From Edwardsiella anguillarum ET080813 (GTDB taxonomy: Bacteria > Pseudomonadota > Gammaproteobacteria > Enterobacterales > Enterobacteriaceae), in contig NZ_CP006665.1 of assembly GCF_000264765.2 (NCBI RefSeq), positions 1 to 64,000 of the forward strand: DNA of 64,000 bases, read 5' to 3'. Shown piece after piece: positions 4,650 through 64,000 of this stretch (position 1 is the first letter of the stretch; each line of letters opens with the position of its first letter). The notes under the pieces were generated by a model. The model searched no databases and had not been told where the DNA came from. It worked only from the letters and a program-made list of their open reading frames with translations. The position numbers and the translations under genes are program-made.

Positions 4650-5487
4650 GTTTTCCGGGCATCCGTAAGGGCCGAAACTTCCCGTCTTCCAGTCTGCGGC
4701 TCTGCCGCCAGACGTAATCGCCGGTTAGGTTGATGTGCTCCCAGCCCAGCGGCGACAGGAATTGCAGCAGCTCGCCGTCCACCGGCTTGCCGGCCTCGAC
4801 CAACCCCTGGGTGGCGCGTTCCAGGTACACCGTGTTCCACAGCACGATAGCCGCCGTCACCAGGTTGAGGCCGCTGGCCCGGTAGCGCTGCTGCTCGAAG
4901 CTCCGATCCCTGATTTCCCCAAGGCGGTTGAAGAACACCGCCCTGGCCAGCGAGTTGCGCGCCTCACCTTTGTTCAGGCCGGCATGCACGCGGCGGCGCA
5001 GTTCAACACTTTGCAGCCAGTCCAGGATGAACAGCGTGCGCTCGATCCGGCCCAGCTCGCGCAGGGCCACGGCCAGTCCGTTCTGGCGCGGGTAGCTGCC
5101 GAGCTTGCGCAGCATCAGCGAGGCGGTGACGGTGCCCTGCTTGATCGAGCTGGCCAGGCGCAGGATGTCGTCCCAGTGGGCACGCACGTGCTTGATGTTC
5201 AGGGTGCCGCCGATCAGCGGGCGCAACGTCGGGTAGGCTTGCACGCCCTGCGGCACGTACAGCTTGGTTTCGCCGAGGTCGCGGATGCGCGGCGCGAAGC
5301 GGAAGCCTAGCAGGTGCATCAGGGCAAAGACGTGATCGGTGAAGCCGGCCGTGTCGGTGTAGTGCTCCTCGATCCGCAGGTCGGACTCGTGGTACAGCAG
5401 GCCGTCGAGCACATAGGTGGAATCGCGGACGCCGACATTCACCACGCGGGTGCTGAACGGCGCGTACTGGTCGGAGATATGGGTATA
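4645..5487 (-). pseudogene. tnpA: Tn1721-type transposase, C-terminal part, cut by Tn5403
   Basis: The minus-strand frame encodes the last 280 or so residues of a Tn21-subgroup TnpA, beginning [11 protein letters not shown] and running through [20 protein letters not shown] (one of the DDE acidic residues) and [20 protein letters not shown] (the region of the catalytic Glu) to the stop at 4645. It is interrupted precisely at 5487/5488 by the terminal repeat of the Tn5403-type transposon, so the first 700 residues are lost here. The next codon upstream in an intact gene would be the one at position 1 of this window, a coincidence treated in the findings. Confidence 0.92.
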
Positions 5488-8998: not shown

Positions 8999-9278
8999 GG
9001 CAGGAACGTTGTCTTTGTAGAACATGCCCATAACTGTAGCTGTATGATCACTCGATTCGTGAATGCAATGGCTAGCAGCAAAGTTAACTTTATCTTTATC
9101 GGCGAAGTAGGACCGGCCCGGAAAGCAAAAATGATCACGGCGGTAGGTAAGGGCGGGTATACATGGGAGACTTCCGTATAACAGACGAATAATAATCCCC
9201 ATATAATGCGCCTACTTATCAGCCTTTGGGACGTTGGGACGGTATTTTTCACTATATACCCCCAAGTTTTTAGACATG

Positions 9279-9311
9279 AAAAAAGCTCGATATATTATAA
9301 ATATATCGAGC
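9279..9311 (-). terminator. Terminator downstream of the MBL-fold gene
   Basis: A 12-bp perfect stem GCTCGATATATT/AATATATCGAGC (9285-9296, 9300-9311) with a 3-nt loop. Read on the minus strand it is followed by six T, so it suits the minus-strand gene ending at 9422. The DNA from here to 8999 shows no convincing gene. Confidence 0.8.
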
Positions 9312-9421
9312 CTTTAAGTTACTGTTTTTCAATATCGTTCAAAATCTTGATAATTACAGTATACGGTTTTATGAAGTGGTATATTTGCAAATGCTTATTT
9401 TGCAAGGTCTATTTGCTTGAT

Positions 9422-10063
9422 TTATCCTACAATCGTAATGCAAAACCCATGACCGGAAGCAACGAACTTAGGTTCAATCTCACTCAAATCCGAGGATAGC
9501 TTTTGTCCGGATTCTTGATTGGGCAATGTATCTGCGCCGCTTGATTTTACCGCTGCGTCCCAACTGCTTTCGATAACTTGTCCGTGATTCTCACCCATGC
9601 CGAACATGAGGTCGCTGCTAAAGAAAATACCACGTTTCTTTTCAAAAAATAAAAGTCCTTCCCACATATGCATTTCAGATGGGTAACTGATAGTTTGAAA
9701 TTCAAAATCATCTCCGGCAAATATTTCATTCGGCTTTTTAATAAGCACATTGTTAGTAATACCAAACCCCATCAGTTGTCTTGCTGTGGTTTCGGAACAA
9801 ACCGCGACAGCTTCGGGATGTTCTTTGAGAACCAAAGCAAGTCCGCCACATTCGTCTGATTCAAAATGAGAAATTAGAATGTATTTTATTTTGCGTTCAC
9901 CGAGCAACTCTTGCAACTTAGGAATGGTAGTTTGCGCTTGTGATACGGCTCCGGTCTGAATGAGAACAGGCTCATTTGTCATCAATAAGTATTGGTGCAT
10001 TGAAAGCTTAATCGGCTCCATTACCTCTGTAAATTGGTATAAATCTTTGATAATCTCTGTCAT
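9422..10063 (-). CDS. MBL-fold metallo-hydrolase (flavodiiron/ODP-like), ISEcp1 passenger
   Basis: 213-residue metallo-beta-lactamase-fold protein resembling the oxygen-binding diiron (flavodiiron-type) group rather than true beta-lactamases. It has a metal-ligand-like HFESDECGG in place of the HxHxDH motif, SSDLMFGMGENHG in the middle and a C-terminal SGHGFC. The HxE-x-D pattern is typical of diiron ODP proteins. The ATG at 10063 follows AAAGGTG; an upstream in-frame TTG at 10069 is less likely. The gene starts 33 bp beyond the ISEcp1 right repeat and in the same orientation as the IS transposase, the position where ISEcp1's outward promoter drives resistance genes. Substrate unknown; I do not infer antibiotic resistance. 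Confidence 0.75.
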   Translation of the reverse strand: MTEIIKDLYQFTEVMEPIKLSMHQYLLMTNEPVLIQTGAVSQAQTTIPKLQELLGERKIKYILISHFESDECGGLALVLKEHPEAVAVCSETTARQLMGFGITNNVLIKKPNEIFAGDDFEFQTISYPSEMHMWEGLLFFEKKRGIFFSSDLMFGMGENHGQVIESSWDAAVKSSGADTLPNQESGQKLSSDLSEIEPKFVASGHGFCITIVG

Positions 10064-10095
10064 TGTCAAAACACCTTTTTCTATTTATAGTCTAA

Positions 10096-11751
10096 CCTAA
10101 ATTCCACGTGTGTTTTTTATTAGCTTCAAAAATCACTATTTCACGAAGAATTTAGACTGCTTCTCACACATTGTAACATTATTTACAACCACCTTTCAAT
10201 CATTTTTGATAAATCATTGATTTCATCTTTGCTGCAATGATACTTAATAAACTCTGCAAGTTATCCACAGAGCAACACTCAATTTTATTGATGATATTCT
10301 TATTATACCAGACATTTTTCATACACTCCCTTGTACGGATAGTTTTCCGACAACTTCATGATTACATATCTTGCGGTTTTGATTATTTTTGCTGCAAGAA
10401 ATACATACTTCAAACGAAAGGTCTTTATTTGCTGTCTGTATTCTGAAGAGTCCAAGGAATCAAACTTGAACAACAAAAATAGGTTATATGAAAGCATCAT
10501 CATTTGAAACACGGCTTCATTCGCCCAAAATGACTTTAGCAAGAGATGACCCACCGCCATGTCGTATTTGGCTTCTTTGATATAGTTTTCAGCATTACCA
10601 CGCTTTTCATAGTATATAACTACTTTTTCAGAAAGCAAGGTAGTATTTGTTACAAAGAAAAAGTAGTCGTATTCGGAACCTTCTAAAAGTGATAATTGTG
10701 CTCTTTCTTTTTCTGGTTTCAGTACGCGAGATACGACAAATCTTCTGTCTTTTTCCCATTTAACTAATTTTGTATACAGTTCTGTAGTTTCTCTACCTTC
10801 TTCTCCTTTAACGAATACAATTGATGAATTCGTTGCTTGTGAGGTGAGTGTAGAATAACTTTTGGCTTTAATTAAATATTTGCATCCAAGAGATTCTATC
10901 GTTTCGATAATTTTTTCATCAAAGTAGCCACTATCCATTCGAAATAAAATTTCTAAATCGTCTGATTTGATGTTAGCAACAATTTCTTTGATCATTTCCG
11001 CAGCACCGTTTGCAGTGTAAGTATTGCCACTTCTTACAAATCCGGTAACATATGCTTTTAATTCGTCGCAAAATGCAAATTGGATATTGTAGCATCGGTT
11101 TCCCAGTTTCTTAGGATTATATCCTTTTGACGCACCTTCTTGATGACCTTCTACGTTAATTACACTACTATCAATATCAATCGTAATGGATGTCAATTTA
11201 CTTTTAGTGAGCAGTTTTTTAAAGACTTTAAAATTAATGTCTCTAAACATTTGGGTTGTCTTGAAGTTGAAGTTTCCTAGAAACCGTGACACTGTTTCAG
11301 GTTCTTTTACGGAAATATCAAACTCGTTGACGAGGGGATCATTTTGAAGTAGCTTTAGACGTTCTAACTTATCAATGCCAATGAAGTGACCGCAGAGCAT
11401 GGTCTTTATATGATTCATCTTGATTTTATTTGTTGAGTCATTATCAAATACGAGGTCATTTTCAATAAAATCAAAAATCCCATTGCTTTTTGCATTCTCA
11501 AGGAGCAGAAAAAGACCTGCATTTGATGTTAGATTCTTAGCTTTGAAATCAATTTTATTAATCATAATTAGAACCCCTTTTTACTACTTTTCTTACTATT
11601 ATTTTACCATATATCGAGTCATAAAAGCTGATAATTTAACATATTTTTGAGCACTTTTCTTTCACCCAATGGGTGAAAGCTGAATTTCGAAGGAATGCAT
11701 ATTTATCAAGGCTTTGATTATGCTTTTTGAAGTACTGACGTAGAATCTAGG
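10096..11751 (-). mobile_element. ISEcp1 (IS1380 family), complete
   Basis: 1,656 bp from the right repeat (CCTAAATTCCACGT at 10096-10109, plus strand) to the left repeat (ACGTAGAATCTAGG at 11738-11751), the expected ISEcp1 length. The transposase is on the minus strand. Its right side carries the outward promoter region known to express adjacent genes such as blaCTX-M; here it faces the MBL-fold gene. Confidence 0.93.
10303..11565 (-). CDS. tnpA: ISEcp1 transposase
   Basis: 420-residue IS1380-family DDE transposase whose sequence (N terminus MINKIDFKAKNLTSNAGLFL) I recognise as that of ISEcp1. Visible catalytic-region motifs include ITIDIDSSVINVEG (first Asp), LFRMDSGYFDE (second Asp) and RGNAENYIKEAK (Glu). 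It is intact. It has low GC relative to the surrounding transposon genes, as expected for this IS. Confidence 0.95.
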   Translation of the reverse strand: MINKIDFKAKNLTSNAGLFLLLENAKSNGIFDFIENDLVFDNDSTNKIKMNHIKTMLCGHFIGIDKLERLKLLQNDPLVNEFDISVKEPETVSRFLGNFNFKTTQMFRDINFKVFKKLLTKSKLTSITIDIDSSVINVEGHQEGASKGYNPKKLGNRCYNIQFAFCDELKAYVTGFVRSGNTYTANGAAEMIKEIVANIKSDDLEILFRMDSGYFDEKIIETIESLGCKYLIKAKSYSTLTSQATNSSIVFVKGEEGRETTELYTKLVKWEKDRRFVVSRVLKPEKERAQLSLLEGSEYDYFFFVTNTTLLSEKVVIYYEKRGNAENYIKEAKYDMAVGHLLLKSFWANEAVFQMMMLSYNLFLLFKFDSLDSSEYRQQIKTFRLKYVFLAAKIIKTARYVIMKLSENYPYKGVYEKCLV

Positions 11752-33325: not shown

Positions 33326-33352
33326 ATTCACATGTGAATTGCACATGTGAAA
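33326..33352. promoter_or_regulatory. Two adjoining CACATGTG palindromes upstream of traF
   Basis: ATTCACATGTGAAT (33326-33339) directly followed by TTGCACATGTGAAA (33339-33352), variants of the plasmid-wide TTTCACATGTGAAA motif. It lies 100-125 bp upstream of traF and just after the helicase stop. Possible ParB-family or regulator binding site. Confidence 0.55.
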
Positions 33353-39930: not shown

Positions 39931-40903
39931 AATGCCCTCCTTTTTGTTTAAGTTTAACACAGCATCAAAAAATGCAACTATGAATAGGGCAAAGAATTAC
40001 AAGGGAAGTCACTAGCTAGAGACATTTCAAGTACCATCAAAACTGTTTCACATGTGAAACTCTTCCCCATTATCCGAAGCTGTCACTTCTTAACAAAGCA
40101 TTACATAGAATTACACTGTTGAACATGTCAACCAAATCGAATACACTAGAAACCAAGTCATAGTTTGCGCTTTGACTCCATTCTGCAAGTCGATGCAGAG
40201 TCATTTTCTGATCAAATCCTTCAACCATAAGCTCAGCATTTTGCTTTGGTTCCAGCCTGCAAAGATGCCTTCAACTGGCCTCTTTCCTGTACTTCTGATT
40301 CATTAATAACTTCCACTATAGATGGACGATTTGTATTTCCCCACCATCTACATAATCAGGCCTGATCGTGCATCATCCACATCAGCCCCTTTCTGTATCA
40401 CATAACTACACCTAATATTTCACAATTATTACAGCTAGAAATTGCTTGAAGAAGCCACATCTAGCAAACCATAGACGTAAGCCGAACATTTCCATAAACG
40501 GACGAACAATAAGTCAAATTAATGGCTTTAACGGCTACTTATTCCAACTGCAAAAGAACTTCATTTTTTGCACTTGATTACTATCAACTAAGTAAATCAC
40601 AAACCCCTATTTTACTGATAGTAATTACACAATTCCTGTATTTCACATCTATCTTATTGATTAATAAAACATTGCAGGATTGTTCTACCGTAACATAGTT
40701 AATTCCATGTTTTTAAAGAATTTATTCTATTGACAGCATCATATTATGGACTTATAAATGTAAAAATATGTCATTTTATGACAATCATAGATCTCTAAAA
40801 GAGACGCAAAAAAACTTCACTTTTTAGCACCAGAAACCACCTTTCACACCTGGACAGGTGTGCTGTTTTTGATTTTTCAGTTACGAAAAAGGAGTCATCA
40901 GAG
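39931..40903. other. Long AT-rich intergenic region upstream of the ner-like operon
   Basis: 973 bp without a credible gene. It contains GTTTCACATGTGAAAC at 40045-40060 (copy of the plasmid-wide palindrome), 115 bp upstream of the candidate eex start, and an AT-rich tract 40540-40800. An inverted repeat CACACCTGGACAGGTGTG (40845-40862) lies 42 bp before the ner-like start, a likely operator or attenuator. Could hold an untranslated RNA or long regulatory leader. Confidence 0.55.
40845..40862. promoter_or_regulatory. Inverted repeat before the Ner-like regulator
   Basis: CACACCTGGACAGGTGTG: 7-bp arms with a 4-bp centre, followed by CTGTTTTT. Position 42-59 bp before the ATG suggests an operator for autoregulation or a transcription attenuator. 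Confidence 0.5.
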
Positions 40904-51616: not shown

Positions 51617-52046
51617 TCAGTAAGAGGATGATACAGCCATAGATTTTCATATACGCACTCTCTAATAACCCAAAATGGGAGCTTTGGTCGTTTTTTGGTG
51701 GCTTTTAGATGGAGATCATCTACTGACGGCTGTAGTACCAAGCTAGCCTACCGAAAAATGCCCCTCACCCACTCGGTGTATGGCTATGGGTATGCAAGCT
51801 CCTCTTTCATGTGAAATTCCTAAGGTGATTTCCCTATCTATCTGGAATTTTGGTCAATTTTTTTCACTTGTATATGGAAAAACATAGGGTAAAATTCCAG
51901 ATAGATAGGAATAGTGGTCAATAAATTTCATGGATTCACTAGCCTTATCCTAGATTCAAATTCCACATATTGGAAAACTGGTACTCAAATTCCAGATAGA
52001 TAGAAATGTGGAAAGGAACTGGATAGGATTTGGATAGGAGATAACA
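51617..52046. other. Intergenic region between parM and mobI-like gene: candidate oriT / par centromere
   Basis: 430 bp without a gene. It contains ACCCAAAATGGGA at 51668-51680 (activator-box variant, 91 bp from parM), TTTCATGTGAAA at 51805-51816, and three copies of a 17-mer, CTATCTATCTGGAATTT at about 51835-51851 and its complement AAATTCCAGATAGATAG at about 51893-51909 and 51978-51994, with a fourth partial block AAATTCCACATA near 51958. In SXT/IncA/C elements oriT lies directly upstream of mobI, and in actin-type par operons the centromere lies upstream of parM, so this segment could be either or both. Confidence 0.5.
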
Positions 52047-52605: not shown

Positions 52606-52893
52606 ATGACAAAATCAGTAGCAGCAACTGACTTAGCCAAGCTCGGAAAATGTGAGGCAATGATTAGGTTCAACCGCCCTAGCCCTCGGCAAGCAACAGG
52701 AGGATCAGTCGCCCACAAGGGGAGCTCAAACACCTTGAGAGGCGAACTAGCTCATGCACGGTATGAATCAACAGTTCTTCGCTTCATGACTAACACTTCT
52801 GGAACAACAAAGCACCGTTTCTACCAGCTAGTGTTCTCAGCGACAGTAGCGCTTGGTGTGCTAACGCTACTGGCAGCATGGATTACAACCTAG
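52606..52893 (+). CDS. Small protein with a C-terminal membrane anchor
   Basis: 95 residues: a soluble part with LGKCEAMIRFNRPSPRQATG and LRGELAHARYESTVL, then one hydrophobic segment (LVFSATVALGVLTLLAAWIT) at the very C terminus. The CE...RGE..H..YE spacing is reminiscent of the start of PD-(D/E)XK (Cas4/RecB-like) nucleases, but the catalytic part is absent. It lies 4 bp after the mobI-like gene and just before repA, so co-transcription is likely. Function unknown. Confidence 0.6.
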   Translation: MTKSVAATDLAKLGKCEAMIRFNRPSPRQATGGSVAHKGSSNTLRGELAHARYESTVLRFMTNTSGTTKHRFYQLVFSATVALGVLTLLAAWITT

Positions 52894-52913
52894 AATGTAT
52901 TGACGGAACAGCC

Positions 52914-53987
52914 ATGAGTAAAAGAGCTAGAGACATAGACTTGGAGCAACTCAATGTAGTCAAAGAGTCGCCGCAGATGAGCTTGTTCGAGATCATTGAA
53001 TCTCCAGCCAAGAAGGATGACTACTCCAACACGATTGAGATCTATGACGCACTCCCCAAATACATCTGGGATCAAAAACGAGAGCACGAAGATCTTTCTA
53101 ATGCTGTCGTGACAAGACAATGCACCATCAGAGGTAAGCAGTTCATAGTAAAAGTGAAACCAGCCATCATAGAAAAAGATGATGGAAGAACGGTGCTCAT
53201 CTATGCCGGACAGAGAGAGGAGATATTAGAGGATGCTCTCAGAAAGCTAGCGGTGAATGGCAAAGGCCATATCATCGAAGGCAAAGCAGGTGTCATGTTC
53301 ACCCTATATGAGCTCCAGAAAGAGCTCTCAAAGATGGGGCACGGATACAATCTAAACGAAGTCAAAGAAGCTATTCAGATCTGCCGAGGAGCAACCCTAG
53401 AGTGTATTAGCGATGATGGAGAAGCGTTCATCAGCTCCAGCTTCTTCCCGATGGTGGGACTGACGACTAGAGGTGAATTCCGCAAAAAAGGCGGTAATGC
53501 ACGGTGCTATGTCCAGTTCAATCCCTTGGTTAATGATTCGATCATGAACTTGTCCTTTCGGCAGTATAACTACAAGCTCGGAATGCAAATACGATCTCCT
53601 CTAGCTAGGTATATCTACAAACGTATGAGTCACTATTGGACTCAAGCGTCTCCTGACTCGCCCTACACTCCATCACTCATAAGCTTTTTGACTCAGAGCC
53701 CTCGTGAGTTAAGCCCCAGAATGCCCGAGAATGTACGGGCCATGAAACTAGCGCTTGAGTCACTCATAAAGCAAGAAGTTATCAGCGGATATGATGCTAC
53801 TCAGATCAAGGATGGCCGTAAGATCATCGATGTTCGCTACGTCATCAAACCTCATGAGAGTTTTGTGAAACAAGTCATGGCATCCAACAAGCGCAAGCAG
53901 CAAACAGAGTTGCGCGCCATTAAACAAGGTTTGATAGACCACGACATCATTGATGAGACCAAAATAAAGAAGATCAAAGGTAGATAG
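52914..53987 (+). CDS. repA: Plasmid replication initiator (iteron-binding Rep)
   Basis: 357 residues from the ATG at 52914 (the frame opens at 52878, overlapping the previous gene). The sequence has the two-winged-helix pattern of iteron initiators: a first domain around GHIIEGKAGVMFTLYELQKE and a second around PLARYIYKRMSHYWTQASPD; the C terminus is very basic (EKIKKIKGR-like). Placement directly before about 19 direct repeats and DnaA boxes makes it the initiator of this origin. It does not match a Rep I can name. A terminator follows at 54011-54032. Confidence 0.85.
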   Translation: MSKRARDIDLEQLNVVKESPQMSLFEIIESPAKKDDYSNTIEIYDALPKYIWDQKREHEDLSNAVVTRQCTIRGKQFIVKVKPAIIEKDDGRTVLIYAGQREEILEDALRKLAVNGKGHIIEGKAGVMFTLYELQKELSKMGHGYNLNEVKEAIQICRGATLECISDDGEAFISSSFFPMVGLTTRGEFRKKGGNARCYVQFNPLVNDSIMNLSFRQYNYKLGMQIRSPLARYIYKRMSHYWTQASPDSPYTPSLISFLTQSPRELSPRMPENVRAMKLALESLIKQEVISGYDATQIKDGRKIIDVRYVIKPHESFVKQVMASNKRKQQTELRAIKQGLIDHDIIDETKIKKIKGR

Positions 53988-55523: not shown

Positions 55524-56064
55524 CTTAGGCCCCTTGAAACTAACATCAGGCGATTCGTGCAGTGCTCCAACATAAGACAGACCAACAATGTACCCATAAC
55601 TAACTGTGCAGCGTTCCCATATGGCACAGGAATATCATAGTGAATTCACCAAACGTGCATCAGTCCCAGATATCCAGCCCCCCTCTTCTGGAACTGAGGA
55701 TCTTAGATACGATCTTAGATCCCTATCTCAAGATCATCTCATTCATCTGATCGTCGCAAAGATAGACAGTTAAACAGCCACCCCACTAAAAACGCCTGTA
55801 ATAGCCATAGAGCCTTTTAGGTGCTATTGCATAAGTTACCCCACTCTCATACTGAAAAACCCTTTAGAGCGGCTTACACGCCGTTTTATGGCCGATCAAT
55901 CATATGAAGCACTAACTATGCCTTCCCTGGGATGAGCCTCGTAACAGATCCCTACCGTGAAATGTTTCACCAAAACAAACCAACAAACAGAGTTACTGAT
56001 CCTTTTTCACCATCACGATCGATAAACGAAACCCATTTACAATATTATTATATGATACTATAGT
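55524..56064. other. Gap with an inverted iteron and GATC-rich block
   Basis: No gene seen. Contains an iteron on the minus strand (55603-55622), a block 55697-55760 with repeated GATC (ATCTTAGATACGATCTTAGA), and an AT-rich segment at 56040-56075 with promoter-like TATGATACTATAG. Possibly an accessory part of the origin or copy control. Confidence 0.5.
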
Positions 56065-56389: not shown

Positions 56390-57337
56390 CTAACGAAAAA
56401 CAAAAAGCAAATGACCGAATGGCATCAAGAGTTAGAGGCTGTCCTTATGACTTTAGACGACTGCCAGATTGAATGTGATGGCATGACTCGGGTTATAAGC
56501 TACTTACTTAATAAAGCAGAAATTCGACATAGCTGCATGTACGGTTTCGTACAGAACGAACAAACCAAAGATATCGTGCCCCCCCATTTTTGGATCATCT
56601 TAGAGGATGGATGGCTGGTGGATCTGAGGCTTCGAATGTGGCTCGGGGATAATGACACGATCCCTCATGGTGTCTTTCACCCTGATAACGAACCTAATTT
56701 CCTCTACCAAGGGGAACCTGTTCCTAGAGATTTCAACATGACATTAGGACACGATCTATTGAACGTCATGACTGATGGAAAACTTTCACATGTGAAAGTA
56801 CCAAGGAAACAAGATGGAGAGCATAGAGTGGAGTTTAATTATGATAAATCCGTATCTAACGCTCATCTTGAAACTGCTGGCTGGGAAATGGATGCTTTTA
56901 ACCATTCAAATCCCTTCGAAAGCCACGTCATTTATGTGCGGGATTACCGTAACAATCTTATCCGTTTGTTTACCATCAACCAGGCCGATTTCGAAGCCAT
57001 GAAGCAACCACGAGAGCTATCTTCCGAGATGTGGGCATCTCTTGTTGCCGAGTATGTTTTAAGAGCAGCAAAAGGGACATTGAAGTTTAAGGACTCCAAA
57101 TCGCTTGCTCCAGCCCTAATTGGGTATACAAAGTCTACTGAGACTTACCGGCGTTGGCGCAGAGTATCAGAGGTTTCTGAGCGCTTGCACATGATTATCA
57201 ACATTTATACCACTGGAATGTTGAGGCCTTTCATCATGAGATCTACTTCAACAGTGCTAACGACAGAAGAAGTAGTAACTGCCTCATCACAAGTAAAAAG
57301 TATGGATGCAACGAATCACCCCGATTGGGTTAAGTAA
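56390..57337 (+). CDS. Putative cysteine-protease/transglutaminase-like protein
   Basis: 315 residues. The first 100 carry a Cys-His-Asp order typical of transglutaminase-like and lasso-peptide-leader peptidases: CQIECDGMTRVISYLLNKAE (Cys), PPHFWIILEDGWLVDLRLRM (His, then Asp). The remainder is of unknown fold, ending in a Thr/Ser-rich tail. ATG at 56390 or 56411 is possible; a TTG at 56318 opens the frame but overlaps the preceding frame. The plasmid palindrome CTTTCACATGTGAAAG lies inside the gene (56783-56798). I do not recognise the family; catalytic role is inferred from spacing only. Confidence 0.5.
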   Translation, partial: LTKNKKQMTEWHQELEAVLMTLDDCQIECDGMTRVISYLLNKAEIRHSCMYGFVQNEQTKDIVPPHFWIILEDGWLVDLRLRMWLGDNDTIPHGVFHPDNEPNFLYQGEPVPRDFNMTLGHDLLNVMTDGKLSHVKVPRKQDGEHRVEFNYDKSVSNAHLETAGWEMDAFNHSNPFESHVIYVRDYRNNLIRLFTINQADFEAMKQPRELSSEMWASLVAEYVLRAAKGTLKFKDSKSLAPALIGYTKSTETYRRWRRVSEVSERLHMIINIYTTGMLRPFIMRSTSTVLTTEEVVTASSQVKSMDATNHPDWVK

Positions 57338-57348
57338 TAGAGGGAATT

Positions 57349-57888
57349 ATGAAAGCAGCTCTCTGGATATTAGCTTTGATCATTGCTCCCTTCGTGATCG
57401 TGAAAGTAGACCTATGGCGCCAGCGGTGTATAGGTGATATTTGGGGATGGTGGAAATCAGAGAATATGCCTTATGAGCTGCGTTCAGCAACCTTGTTCCT
57501 ATCTGAGCGAGATGTGTCAACTTCATTCCCTGTGCCGATACATGGCCGAGTTGATCAAGTGTTCAAAACTAAGCGAGGTATTCTCATTATTCTGGATACT
57601 AAATCTCGGGGGGCCCATCGTATCTATTCTTCTGACATTATTCAGTTATCGGCTTACCAACTGATTTTGAAACACCAGTACAGTTACCCTGTTGCAAAGT
57701 ATGGCTATGTTAGAACTGTTGTTGAAGATGCCTATGGTGAAAAAGTTCGCTACCTAAAAGTAAAGTTATTGAGCGATCGAGAAGTTATTAAACTGTGGCA
57801 ACGCTACCAAGATATTCATTCGGGTACAGTCCACCCTTCCTGTTATTGTGGTGGTCGCTTCCATATGAACTCCAAACCATCTTCATAA
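57349..57888 (+). CDS. Membrane-anchored PD-(D/E)XK (Cas4/RecB-like) nuclease
   Basis: 179 residues. An N-terminal membrane segment (ALWILALIIAPFVIVKV) precedes a PD-(D/E)XK core: FPVPIHGRVDQVFKTKRGIL (Asp in GRVD), IILDTKSR (Asp-x-Lys) and SSDIIQLSAYQLILKHQY (motif IV Gln-Tyr). The C terminus has HPSCYCGGRF, two Cys that could bind a metal or iron-sulfur cluster with others. It is 11 bp after the previous gene, probably co-transcribed. Similar short anchored nucleases occur in conjugative elements near the leading region; the role is unknown. Confidence 0.75.
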   Translation: MKAALWILALIIAPFVIVKVDLWRQRCIGDIWGWWKSENMPYELRSATLFLSERDVSTSFPVPIHGRVDQVFKTKRGILIILDTKSRGAHRIYSSDIIQLSAYQLILKHQYSYPVAKYGYVRTVVEDAYGEKVRYLKVKLLSDREVIKLWQRYQDIHSGTVHPSCYCGGRFHMNSKPSS

Positions 57889-57900
57889 GGGGAAGATGGC

Positions 57901-58342
57901 TTTCACATGTGAAACACGATCTCCCCCTCCCCCTCTCCTGGTTCAGGCCTTTCACATGCAAAACACGATCTCCCCCTCCGCTCTCCTGGTTTAGGTCTTT
58001 CACATGTGAAATACGATCTCCCCCTCCGCTCTCCTAGTTTAGGTCTTTCACATGTGAAACACGATCTCCCCCTCCGCTCTCCTGGTTTAGGTCTTTCACA
58101 TGTGAAACACGATCTCCCCCTCCGCTCTCCTGGTTTAGGTCTTTCACATGTGAAACACGATCTCCCCCTCCCCTCCCCTGGTTCAGGCCTTTCACATGTG
58201 AAACACGATCTCCCCCTCCGCTCTCCTGGTTTAGGTCTTTCACATGTGAAACACGATCTCCCCCTCCCCTCCCCTGGTTCAGGCCTTTCACATGTGAAAC
58301 ACGATCTCCCTCTCCTGGCTTAGGAAGCTTTCACATAGGCTC
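57901..58342. repeat. Nine-copy 48-bp repeat array with palindromic core: candidate partition centromere
   Basis: TTTCACATGTGAAA at 57901, 57998, 58046, 58094, 58142, 58190, 58238 and 58286, a degenerate copy at 57950 and a half copy at 58329. The period is 48-49 bp, with near-identical filler (ACGATCTCCCCCTCC and CTCCTGGTTTAGGTC). The 14-16-bp palindrome resembles ParB parS (TGTTTCACGTGAAACA) with an extra AT at the centre. Single copies occur elsewhere, notably 36 bp before parA. Most likely the ParB-binding site cluster and an incompatibility determinant. The 105-codon frame through it is an artefact of the repeat. Confidence 0.75.
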
Positions 58343-60517: not shown

Positions 60518-60805
60518 ATGGATCGCTGGTGGCTGTATCTACCTAATGGTCTCAGAAGCTGGCCTCGATGTCAGCTTCATTCTATTTATAGTTCAAAAAG
60601 TTCTGAACCACTTCTAGCCGGGGATTTTACGCTAGGAGACCTAGAACACTCCGTGTTAATCCAATCAAATTTGCCCAAAATGGGTATTGGTAAGGAAGCA
60701 GTAGGTTGGAAATGGGAGCACAATGATGGTACGAGTTTCACATGTGAAACATGCTCAATTGTAAATTCTGTCAGCGTCACACCTCTTTACAGCATCATAA
60801 AATGA
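60518..60805 (+). CDS. Short Trp-rich frame, doubtful gene
   Basis: 95 residues from the ATG at 60518 (MDRWWLYLPNGLRSWPRCQL). Contains GCCCAAAATGGGT (60673-60685) and GTTTCACATGTGAAAC (60735-60750) within the frame, which suggests the DNA may primarily be regulatory. It follows the DsbA-like gene by 8 bp. No homology recognised. Confidence 0.35.
   Translation: MDRWWLYLPNGLRSWPRCQLHSIYSSKSSEPLLAGDFTLGDLEHSVLIQSNLPKMGIGKEAVGWKWEHNDGTSFTCETCSIVNSVSVTPLYSIIK
60673..60750. promoter_or_regulatory. Activator box and ParB-type palindrome upstream of the ParB-domain gene
   Basis: GCCCAAAATGGGT (60673-60685) and GTTTCACATGTGAAAC (60735-60750) lie 230-305 bp before the gene at 60979. The stretch 60806-60978 has no gene. 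Confidence 0.4.
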
Positions 60806-60978: not shown

Positions 60979-61896
60979 ATGGCTGCTATCAATTCACTTC
61001 GCGCTCTTAAAGGTGTCACTCCAGCTCAAGATCTGAAAAAAGGCGATGGTTTCACCATTGCTCCCCAGCTCCTACTTGAAGAGGAGGGGTTTAATACTCG
61101 CGGAGCCTTTTGTGACAATTACTATGATCGCCCTGACATTAAAGAGGGTATCCGTGTCTTGGCTGAGGCTTATAAGCGCGGGGATTATGTTCCTCCAATC
61201 ATCGTCAAAGTTATCGATGGCAAAGTCTATATTCGTGAAGGGCACCGCCGTCGTCGGGCGCTTCTACGCGCTATTGAGGAAGGCGCAGATATTAAGCTTG
61301 TACAAGTGGTGGAGCATCGTGGTGATGAAGCGGAGCAGAACTTACTGATTGCAACAAGCAACGATGGCCTCCCTCTATCGCCTCTTGAGCGAGCTGTAAT
61401 TTATGCTCGACTCGCACATTGGGGATGGAGTGATCAAATGATCGCCCTGCGTGTTGGTCGCTCAGCCGAGCATGTTCGTAGCGCCCGTGCGCTTTTGGAA
61501 ATGCCATTAGAGCTAAAACGGATGATTCAAGAAGGTACTGTCGCCGCTACCTACGCACAAGCTCTTTATAATGAGCATGGAACTGCTGCTGTTGATATTT
61601 TGAAAAAAGCCCAAGAAGAACAAGGCAGCGGCGATAGTGATAAGCAGACTAAGAAGTTGACGAAGAAATCCGTTGAGAAGGGGCCTCGATTGGGGAAAAA
61701 GGTAGTGGAGGCTATGCGCCGTAGTGTAAGCACAATTACTAACCGCCTCGATGATATTAAGCCGACCGCTGATGGTGATTTTACGCTGACGCTGAGTAAG
61801 GAAGATGTTGAGGCCCTTCAAGAGTTGAGGGCGAAACTGACTGAGCTGGAGTCGAAGTCTAAGCCTAGTAGCCCTGAGGCAGATAGTGGGGAGTAA
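60979..61896 (+). CDS. ParB-domain (CTPase/nuclease-fold) protein
   Basis: 305 residues with a ParB N-terminal domain: VPPIIVKVIDGKVYIREGHR then RRRALLRAIEEG (the GHRRRR box corresponds to the CTP/phosphate motif GxRR), LSPLERAVIYARLAHWGWSD, and a helix-turn-helix QMIALRVGRSAEHVRSARAL. The C-terminal third is a charged linker (KQTKKLTKKSVEKG) and a helix that may dimerise. It is separate from the parA-linked ParB at 62908 and differs from it in size and sequence. Such extra ParB-domain proteins occur beside parAB in IncA/C plasmids; the role is unproved. GAGG before the ATG. Confidence 0.85.
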   Translation: MAAINSLRALKGVTPAQDLKKGDGFTIAPQLLLEEEGFNTRGAFCDNYYDRPDIKEGIRVLAEAYKRGDYVPPIIVKVIDGKVYIREGHRRRRALLRAIEEGADIKLVQVVEHRGDEAEQNLLIATSNDGLPLSPLERAVIYARLAHWGWSDQMIALRVGRSAEHVRSARALLEMPLELKRMIQEGTVAATYAQALYNEHGTAAVDILKKAQEEQGSGDSDKQTKKLTKKSVEKGPRLGKKVVEAMRRSVSTITNRLDDIKPTADGDFTLTLSKEDVEALQELRAKLTELESKSKPSSPEADSGE

Positions 61897-62002: not shown

Positions 62003-62067
62003 GTTTCTAGATTGTTTTAACAGGACCATAATTAGATATTGCAGTATCATTTTTTGGGCTATAAAAT

Positions 62068-62083
62068 CTTTCACATGTGAAAG
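62068..62083. promoter_or_regulatory. Palindrome 35 bp before parA (probable ParB/ParA operator)
   Basis: CTTTCACATGTGAAAG, the same core as the 57901-58342 array. Its position over the expected parA promoter suggests autoregulation of parAB. Confidence 0.65.
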
Positions 62084-62118: not shown

Positions 62119-62904
62119 ATGGGAAAAGTAATTAGTTTCTCCAACCAGAAAGGCGGGGTTGGTAAGAGCACCCTCTGTATCCAACAAGCATTTTATTTGA
62201 CTCTGATAGAAAAGAAGAAAGTGCTGGTGTTGGATATGGATGGACAAGGGAATACCTCTTCCCGGCTGGCCCCTAGACGATATCTAGAGGATGGCGAGTT
62301 TGAGCCGATTCTTTCTGGGACGAAGGCTGCGGAGTTGTTCGCTTATGAACTGGATAAGGTTGAAGTGATGTCCTGTCCATGTGGTGCTGATCTCATCCAT
62401 ACACCAAAGAATGACTCTGACCTATTCGAAATGGAGGCTATCCCTCTAGGTCAGGCGATGAACCCTGCTCGCCATTTGGCTGATTTAATCGAAAACTACG
62501 ATTACGTGCTGGTGGATTGTCCTCCTGGCCTCGGTAGAAAGCTGGTGGCTGCTCTGGTTATGTCAACCCATGTAGTATGCCCGGTTAAGCTCTCCGGCTT
62601 TTCTGTAGATGGTGTAGAAGGCCTCCTGAATACGATCATTGGTATTCGTGAGGCGTATAACCCAGAACTGGAGATCTTGGGGATTGTGATTAACGATATG
62701 GATCGTTCTGTTAATCATGAAAAATCGTTGAAGACTTTAGAGGCAACTGTTCCTGAACTTTTGTTCGAGAATAAGATAATGCACCGTCCGCCGCTGGATA
62801 GTGCAATTTCCGAAGGGGTTCCTGTCTGGGAGTTGCGCTATGGACATGTTGCGGCAAAAGAGGTTCTAGCAGTATTGGCTGAAATTGTTAAAAAGGTGGG
62901 CTAA
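62119..62904 (+). CDS. parA: ParA partition ATPase
   Basis: 261 residues, type I partition ATPase. Deviant Walker A KGGVGKST at residues 11-18 (FSNQKGGVGKSTLCIQQAFY), Walker A' VLVLDMDGQGNTSSRL, Walker B YDYVLVDCPPGL. No N-terminal helix-turn-helix extension, so it is of the short type (Ib-like or IncP IncC-like); repression of the operon is then more likely by ParB. The ATG at 62119 follows AGGGGTG; a GTG at 62113 opens the frame. parB begins 4 bp after its stop. Confidence 0.93.
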   Translation: MGKVISFSNQKGGVGKSTLCIQQAFYLTLIEKKKVLVLDMDGQGNTSSRLAPRRYLEDGEFEPILSGTKAAELFAYELDKVEVMSCPCGADLIHTPKNDSDLFEMEAIPLGQAMNPARHLADLIENYDYVLVDCPPGLGRKLVAALVMSTHVVCPVKLSGFSVDGVEGLLNTIIGIREAYNPELEILGIVINDMDRSVNHEKSLKTLEATVPELLFENKIMHRPPLDSAISEGVPVWELRYGHVAAKEVLAVLAEIVKKVG

Positions 62905-62907
62905 GCC

Positions 62908-64000
62908 ATGGCGCTAAAAAATCTAAAAAGCTTATCCGATCTGGCTAAAGCGGCAACTGGTAAACGAGGCAAGGAGATCCTTGTCGTTCCTGTCGATGAT
63001 GTTGTATCTAAGGTGCAGGTCAGAAAGCGCTTTCGTAAAATTGAAGAACTCGCGGCTACTATACTTACAGATGGGCAGCAATCACCCATTATCGTGTCCC
63101 CTAAAAATGAGCATGGTAAGTATGTAATTCAGAAGGGAGAGCGACGTTGGCGAGCCTGTAAGCACGCTGGAATTGAGACAATCGAGCTGATCATTAATGA
63201 CCAAGAGTTAAATCCTCTAGACGAAACTGCCGGGGAGCTCATCGAGAACATCCAGCGTGATGATCTCACTCCAATGGAGATCGCCCTAGCCTTGAATAAG
63301 TTCGTTGAGGATGGATGGTCGCAGCGAAAGATTGGTGAACGTATTGGCAAGAGTGTTTCGTTTGTCTCGACACATCTGTCCTTACTGAAACTGCCTATGT
63401 GTGTGCAAGAACTGTATGAACATGACATGTGTTCTGACATCGAAACACTAAACAACTTGCGACTGTTGTTTGATCTAGATGAGTCTCGGTGTCAAACAGT
63501 CTGTTCTGCTGCTCTGAGTGACGGTATCTCTCGCAAGCAGAGTAGAGAGTATTTAACCGATGCTAAGGTTGCTTTGCTGAAGCTTCCTGACTGTGTGCAA
63601 GACGTCTATGAAAAGGGATTATGTACTGATGTTGATACCTTGAAAAATCTTGGTCTCTTGTTCGATGTGGATGAGAATCGCTGCCGTACTGTTTGTGCTG
63701 TAGCTTTGACCGATGGGATATCCAGTAAACAAAGTTTGGAGATCTTGAATGATGCCAAGCGTGTTAAGGAGGATATTCATAATTCTGGCTCTACTGAGCA
63801 TCGAGGCATGGATCAGAATATCACTCATACTGGTGTAGAATTAGGTTCTGAATCAGGTTCTGAATCAGGTTCTGAATCAGGTTCTGAATCAGGTTCTGCA
63901 CCGGAGACTAACCCTGATTTGAGTAGTGGTGTAGTAACTCCGTCGCCTAAGAGCAAAGAGTGGAAGAATGCCCGTGCGGAAAATTTGATCTTTACTGTCA
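62908..64000 (+). CDS. parB: ParB/KorB-like partition protein, cut by the window edge
   Basis: At least 364 residues; the 3' end is outside the window. Order: ParB N-domain (VRKRFRKIEELAATI, then QKGERRWRACKHAG, the CTP motif, and ENIQRDDLTPMEIALALNKF); helix-turn-helix WSQRKIGERIGKSVSFVSTH; then a KorB-like DNA-binding unit of 64 residues present twice in tandem (about residues 159-222 and 223-286); then a flexible linker with GSES repeats (DNA 63844-63891). It probably binds TTTCACATGTGAAA sites with ParA as partner. No start ambiguity: ATG at 62908. Confidence 0.92.
   Translation, partial: MALKNLKSLSDLAKAATGKRGKEILVVPVDDVVSKVQVRKRFRKIEELAATILTDGQQSPIIVSPKNEHGKYVIQKGERRWRACKHAGIETIELIINDQELNPLDETAGELIENIQRDDLTPMEIALALNKFVEDGWSQRKIGERIGKSVSFVSTHLSLLKLPMCVQELYEHDMCSDIETLNNLRLLFDLDESRCQTVCSAALSDGISRKQSREYLTDAKVALLKLPDCVQDVYEKGLCTDVDTLKNLGLLFDVDENRCRTVCAVALTDGISSKQSLEILNDAKRVKEDIHNSGSTEHRGMDQNITHTGVELGSESGSESGSESGSESGSAPETNPDLSSGVVTPSPKSKEWKNARAENLIFTV

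Follow-up and report, generated by a model that had tools for sequence, protein, structure and literature searches.

A tandem array of the IncC parS core as the likely clustered centromere of an Edwardsiella anguillarum plasmid

The plasmid contig of Edwardsiella anguillarum ET080813 (NZ_CP006665.1, 127,046 bases) contains a tandem array at positions 57901..58329 of the 64,000-nucleotide stretch analyzed here (the window), in which nine units each open with the 14-bp palindrome TTTCACATGTGAAA, exact in eight of them. This array is likely a clustered centromere that would be bound by the KorB-domain ParB encoded from position 62908 and partitioned by the ParA encoded from 62119, with a ParB that would have become tolerant of altered flanks around the core (probability roughly 0.78). 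Its assignment as a clustered centromere of the IncC type, organized like sopC of plasmid F, is well supported, while binding by this particular ParB is a prediction from sequence. The palindrome was already known; the array, the relaxed flanks and the partly doubled ParB are new.

Drug resistance is carried to a major extent by IncC plasmids, whose centromere has been in print only since 2024. Among the papers covered by a full-text search, the 14-mer was found in one, Muranyi et al. 2024 (PMC10954446), which describes TTTCACATGTGAAA as the fully conserved core of the 22-bp IncC parS sites (AAAC-core-GTTT). The second gene of parAB053 encodes the KorB-domain ParB, which is reported there to bind three such sites in EMSA and to leave the bare 14-bp core unbound, and the GT flank is thought to be important for binding. 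One parS site causes incompatibility, ParA and ParB stabilize a replicon bearing one site, and extra copies disturb IncC partition in a dose-dependent manner; binding and incompatibility are published for the sites of R55 and SGI1 only (PMC10954446). R55 has 14 sites and IncA and IncC plasmids mostly have 7-14, with the statement that no IncA or IncC plasmid carries more than 14 copies. IncC ParB is concluded to repress its own operon at PparA, whereas its involvement at traF and three further operons is the authors' suggestion and not a demonstrated effect (PMC10954446). Edwardsiella is not mentioned in the main text of that paper.

A sequence-only reading of the window had proposed that the array is a parS-like centromere. 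That proposal is supported by the identity of its core with the IncC parS core, for which ParB binding, incompatibility and stabilization have been published (PMC10954446), so that the reading was right and its basis already known. It did not note the doubled module of ParB, the altered flanks or the replacement of a single IncC site by the array. The 20 exact copies on the present contig exceed the published maximum of 14, provided that plasmids typed as IncC by MOB-suite count as IncC. The 14-bp core can evidently be conserved despite changes in its flanks, in how many sites there are and how they are spaced, and in the DNA-binding domain of ParB. The plasmid therefore offers a natural experiment on what leads some plasmids to rely on a single parS site or a few and others on tandem clusters, and on how ParB and parS change together.

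Copies of the palindrome and architecture of the array

The 20 exact copies of TTTCACATGTGAAA compare with 0.0006 predicted from base composition, and among the 14-bp perfect palindromes of the contig it alone occurs more than twice. A scan of the whole genome (3 contigs, 4.33 Mb) allowing one mismatch yielded 21 matches, all confined to the plasmid contig, and none for a reversed control pattern. Within the window, 15 places match with at most two mismatches against 0.29 expected by shuffling, which bears out the recurrence that had been noted from the letters alone. Eight further exact copies lie beyond the window on the same contig (66802, 66862, 77336, 77422, 77470, 97788, 104084 and 111519). 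The earlier likening of the core to a ParB parS lengthened by two central bases agrees with the chromosomal parS consensus.

Four lone exact copies stand in the window, each one base higher than originally given. The copy at 40046..40059 lies downstream of traG and is the positional counterpart of site 123368 in the IncC plasmid pMS-37b (W04); the one at 56784..56797 has IncC-like AAAC/GT flanks and sits in a gene region that also bears a site in IncC and IncA records; the one at 60736..60749 is downstream of a dsbA-like gene, about 230 bp before a gene for a ParB-like protein; and the one at 62069..62082 is 36 bp ahead of the start codon that NZ_CP035669 assigns to parA. A promoter-like TTGCAG-17-TAAAAT was read by eye directly upstream of this last core; because a promoter scan returned none at 62030-62070, the -10 element beside it rests on that reading. 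The double variant previously described before traF is likewise present at 33326..33352, between a helicase gene and traF, and consists of matches with two mismatches at 33326 and one at 33339, versus one exact site in the same gap of IncC and IncA records. By contrast, the shorter form placed at 51805 does not hold up as a site, as it is a three-mismatch match at 51803; 118.5 kb hold nine of these, and it is no closer to the core than the rest.

The array units begin at 57901, 57950, 57998, 58046, 58094, 58142, 58190, 58238 and 58286, and are 48 bp long except for the first (49 bp) and the last (44 bp). Only the unit at 57950 departs from the core, with two changes (TTTCACATGCAAAA), and a degenerate half-palindrome (TTTCACATAGG) on the forward strand closes the array at 58330..58340. 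Tandem Repeats Finder (TRF) delineates the repeat at 57900-58315, with a period of 48, 8.6 copies and 93% matches. Nine tandem palindromes with a 48-bp period had been described correctly, but not their filler, which is not constant and comprises two main versions together with divergent first and last units. Deviating cells number 2/126 in the core and 28/342 in the filler; as the units are alike and recently homogenized, core identity inside the array constitutes weak evidence of selection.

The sopC centromere adjoins sopB, and its palindrome differs from TTTCACATGTGAAA. It comprises ten functional 43-bp repeats (PMC7205306), and the present array shares its plan of short tandem units with one palindrome each, with nine units of 48 bp instead of ten of 43 bp. 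The two systems differ in that the candidate binder here is of the KorB rather than the SopB type, many single sites occur elsewhere on the plasmid, and the array stands apart from parAB, with about 3.8 kb between its end at 58329 and the start of parA at 62119.

The array begins 12 bp after the stop of a PD-(D/E)XK nuclease-like gene (57349..57888, forward strand), the 3' end of which holds a single site in IncC and IncA records. For every one of the 14 exact sites in pMS-37b, and likewise in pRA1 (W09), the neighboring genes were matched to the contig; nine of the 14 pMS-37b sites were judged to have a clear counterpart here, two an uncertain one and three none. The single site of IncC and pRA1 at the nuclease-like gene corresponds to the array, and, judged by this position, the array would have arisen through local multiplication of one ancestral site. 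Before traL, three sites (77336, 77422 and 77470) are found here versus one in IncC and pRA1; the pair 77422/77470 is likewise 48 bp apart, but its filler is unrelated to that of the array. For a relative in Vibrio, only 4/12 sites were judged to have a clear positional counterpart on this contig.

A different repeat, TATATGGGAACnTTGCACG, is present in many copies between about 54060 and 54929 and once each near 55608 and 56253. Its copies flank a DnaA-box-like TTATCCACA on either side, lie downstream of a Rep3-like gene (52878-53987) and are probably replication iterons. The possibility that the array itself serves as replication iterons was rejected in view of this separate repeat beside the replication gene.

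The KorB-domain ParB as candidate reader

The parA gene (62119..62904, forward strand), encoding a Walker-type ATPase, is followed by parB (62908..64000 in the window, forward strand, extending to a stop at contig position 64161), which encodes a KorB-domain protein of 417 aa. This order, with a core ahead of parA, is the arrangement of IncC plasmids, and across the aligned part the parB product shares 61% identity with the ParB of an IncC plasmid. Pfam assigns it PF02195 (ParB_N), PF17762 and, in two stretches, PF08535 (KorB; E=7.6e-41), a combination that places it in the KorB family. In a structure-linked alignment of 58 of 121 proteins, the motif GERRWRA is invariant and ENIQR is invariant except for Q (at least 90%); both presumably represent CTPase-fold motifs of ParB clamps.

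The sequence-only reading had offered two ParB-domain proteins as possible binders, the second being a ParB-like protein with an HTH_ParB domain (60979..61896, forward strand), a homolog of the IncC ParB-like protein. The core and a KorB-type ParB occur together in 9/9 records, including those from Vibrio, Aeromonas, Shewanella, Xenorhabdus and Thiothrix. Four of these nine (Shewanella, Aeromonas, Vibrio and Thiothrix) lack a homolog of the 60979 protein, the weak matches to it there being the KorB-domain ParB itself, and a fifth record has only a partial match of 38%. Since the four records nevertheless carry 13, 8, 12 and 2 exact cores, respectively, the 62908 protein is the likely reader, and it very probably binds the palindrome, to judge from this co-occurrence; the nomination of the 60979 protein was accordingly dropped. 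It is highly improbable that the palindromes are operators of the 60979 protein instead, even though it has a ParB-type HTH and one core stands about 230 bp ahead of its gene, given its absence from those core-bearing records and the use of the KorB-domain ParB in the published EMSA (PMC10954446).

A feature peculiar to the ParB of this plasmid is a tandem duplication of a 64-residue four-helix module, the half of the DNA-binding domain that follows the helix-turn-helix. Copy one spans aa 159-222 (63382..63573, forward strand) within the DNA-binding domain, and copy two aa 223-286 (63574..63765, forward strand). The duplication is absent from the aligned IncC, IncA, Xenorhabdus, Aeromonas, Vibrio and Thiothrix ParBs, and Pfam finds one KorB stretch in each of three scanned KorB-type relatives versus two here. 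In a homolog search that scored the 7994 candidates sharing most words, the query and the best 120 of 256 homologs were examined; 118 of these 121 proteins have a single copy. The three with two copies are this ParB, a 98% identical sibling (P0002) and a metagenomic KorB-domain ParB of 429 aa (P0093). The copies of P0093 are only 33% alike, which gives its duplication the look of a separate and probably independent event; its second copy also lacks the R185 equivalent. The linker of the present parB contains a 12-bp tandem repeat (GAATCAGGTTCT) at 63838-63898 that encodes repeated SESG units, and the sibling P0002 is 8 residues shorter there, indicating that linker length varies.

The two module copies are identical at 41/64 residues. 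Synonymous sites between them are saturated (pS 0.83) and pN is 0.22, which shows long-standing constraint on both. An AlphaFold2 model (mean pLDDT 85.6, pTM 0.62) gives both modules the same four helices, with a block pLDDT of 93-98, and the top two Foldseek matches of the model are KorB chains (8qa9), with 1r71, the DNA-binding domain of KorB bound to its operator, also among the matches. In the 58-sequence alignment, 21 positions of copy one are either invariant or conserved to at least 90%; copy two retains 16 of them and changes L169V, N182K, R185G, R209S and R213L, so that four invariant polar residues have been lost and its core has been kept. R209 aligns with the arginine of the KorB ITR stretch, presumably the operator-contacting R240. 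With these polar residues gone, including the R209 equivalent, copy two looks like a fold retained without its DNA side, as far as model and alignment indicate. A role of module two as a second full DNA reader was rejected, as it has no HTH and lacks the four polar residues.

The operators of KorB in IncP plasmids (RK2/RP4) differ in sequence from TTTCACATGTGAAA and are not known to form a tandem array. Both systems nevertheless have in common a KorB-domain protein and dispersed palindromes near backbone promoters, and KorB is the best structural match of the ParB model. IncP KorB is described as having 12 palindromic 13-bp operators (cited in PMC10954446), and RK2 KorB as a CTP-dependent clamp that reaches promoters as far as 1.5 kb away by sliding (PMC11790492). 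The ParB of the present plasmid may control several promoters, as had been proposed by analogy with KorB; sites stand before parA, traF and traL, and in IncC such control is published for parA only.

Flanks of the core and competing explanations

The flanks were compared by turning every site to its better orientation and scoring GT after the core. All exact sites of each record entered the count, and only these, so that 33326, 33339 and 57950 are excluded for this plasmid; the two copies of this plasmid (W01 and W02) and a second IncC plasmid (W10) were also left out. The GT flank is found at 14/14 sites in one IncC plasmid, 11/14 in pRA1, 12/13 in Shewanella, 10/10 in each of two Xenorhabdus records, 12/12 in Vibrio, 2/2 in Thiothrix and 1/8 in Aeromonas. 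On the present plasmid it is found at 4/12 dispersed sites and at 0/8 exact array units, so the conserved AAAC/GTTT flank of IncC-type parABS systems is mostly missing. The dispersed sites differ in this respect from those of the IncC record (Fisher p = 3e-4) and of pRA1 (p = 0.045). Their proportion of GT exceeds the 12% random expectation (p = 0.048), indicating that some weak preference for GT may persist. At several places where IncC has GT, all 14 bases of the core are kept here and GT is gone; as IncC ParB does not bind the bare core, either the ParB of this plasmid reads the core without GT or these sites are weak.

Flank change does not require a doubled module, because seven of the eight Aeromonas sites lack GT although the ParB of that record is unduplicated. 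Together with the three of 14 pRA1 sites that lack GT alongside an unduplicated ParB, and the above-chance GT at dispersed sites here, this weakens a connection between duplication and flank loss. The Aeromonas plasmid, pWP8-W19-CRE-03_1 (L019, L041-L045), has A/T runs in place of GT at 6/8 cores, and its ParB has V for K148, an almost invariant residue immediately preceding the predicted recognition helix; the two changes may represent a natural specificity switch.

The lost flanks can also be taken to mean that the array is a neutral satellite, generated by slippage and unbound without GT, with the dispersed sites serving as the working centromere. The failure of IncC ParB to bind the bare core (PMC10954446), the complete absence of GT from the exact array units and the presence of one unit already altered all agree with this reading. 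It is nonetheless quite unlikely, as GT is also missing from 8/12 dispersed sites that yet keep all 14 core bases, and multiplication of sites has taken place before traL, within unrelated spacer DNA, and before traF as well. The array is also kept in three near-identical plasmids, although these are too close to one another for strong evidence.

A further alternative views the array mainly as a sink or spreading center for ParB, one that would set the level of free ParB and hence the repression of parAB and transfer promoters, without being the main partition site. The sites before parA, traF and traL fit such a role, as do the autorepression by IncC ParB and the dose-dependent disturbance of partition by extra parS copies (PMC10954446), and the sliding of RK2 KorB to distant promoters (PMC11790492). 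This is unlikely as the principal function, given that the promoter scan found no promoter-like match within the array and that no sign points to titration being of consequence; moreover, the roles of sink and centromere are mutually compatible.

In the favored reading of the array as a clustered centromere, ParB 62908 would load as a CTP clamp onto the array and likewise onto the dispersed cores. The single cores would serve as further loading sites, and the one before parA likely mediates autorepression of the operon, for which IncC offers the published precedent. The ParB of this lineage would have lost most of its need for the GT flank and would read the 14-bp core. Affinity per site would probably be lower, offset by many close sites at which CTP-clamp ParB dimers accumulate, and the cluster would raise the local concentration of ParB and give ParA a strong handle. 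Module two would act as a protein-protein bridge or as a spacer between dimers rather than as a second DNA reader. The sites with their positions and flanks, the duplication and its long maintenance, and a confident fold model are established here, and binding of the palindrome by this ParB, the benefit of clustering and the role of module two are inferred. A more specific version, in which centromere and reader were rebuilt together, with a DNA-blind module bridging dimers, the flank check dropped and the 48-bp array read by avidity and spacing, is possible but doubtful; the link between module, flanks and array is the least certain part and rests on one lineage.

Related plasmids and wider occurrence of the core

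The segment 56300-64000 (7,701 bases) is 100.0% identical to pEP-MS-18-199 of Edwardsiella piscicida and 99.9% identical to pEI-S15163-1 of E. ictaluri, both of which MOB-suite types as conjugative, with an IncC replicon, MOBH and MPF_F. In its 2019 description (PMC6890552), pEP-MS-18-199 is reported to be highly similar to the plasmid of E. anguillarum ET080813, to fit no historical incompatibility group and to be retained through 20 subcultures, a stability that is not tied there to the array. Its ParB (pEPMS-18199) is identical to the one studied here, and it also encodes a ParM/StbA protein.

The closest known system is the parABS of IncC and IncA plasmids (parAB053), with which the present plasmid shares the identical 14-bp core, the gene order of ParA, KorB-domain ParB and a third helix-turn-helix gene, the core before parA and dispersed cores at many of the same places. 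It differs in having 20 exact copies, compared with 14 in one IncC and one IncA record, in the tandem array, in the predominant loss of the GT/AAAC flanks and in the doubled 64-residue ParB module. The DR1 and DR2 sites of SGI1 are parS mimics with the same core, used for hijacking IncC ParB (PMC10954446); they number two, stand isolated with flanks like those of IncC, and belong to an integrative element without a complete Par system.

Among five Edwardsiella genomes examined, paired cores occur only in the present one. A viral origin of the array was considered and set aside, as no array match was found in phages, no paired-core match in viral contigs and no confirmed parB relative in viral contigs; E. 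coli genomes likewise contain no match to the array. A search for two exact cores at a spacing of 20-50 bp, run on one genome from each of 84,980 species, identified five loci, and the 6-8 kb around them contain no KorB-type par operon. Three are Campylobacterota records (two Sulfurimonas and one Helicobacteraceae) with exact TTTCACATGTGAAA pairs at 5002/5050 (L011), 4790/4824 (L012) and 2803/2852 (L015), spaced 48, 34 and 49 bp apart and flanked by GTG/CAC. Each pair precedes a ParA-ParB operon by about 60-250 bp, and the ParB encoded there combines a ParB_N with an HTH_ParB domain, suggesting that the same core may serve unrelated plasmids as parS; the pairs are probably parS sites of such plasmids.

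At 3835-3889 of L013, from a Marinobacter metagenome bin, a pair of exact cores stands 41 bp apart, one of them with IncC-like AAAAC/GTTTT flanks, and no ParB was found within the 8 kb examined; the locus may derive from an IncC-like plasmid. Next to a gene for a TrwB-type coupling protein, a Pseudomonadales metagenome bin (L014, 5916-5999) repeats the exact core three times at a 35-bp period. Elsewhere in the window, the translations of 9200-10084 and 11414-11647 are 100% identical to accessory regions of pRA1, an identity which indicates that both are probably recent shared insertions.
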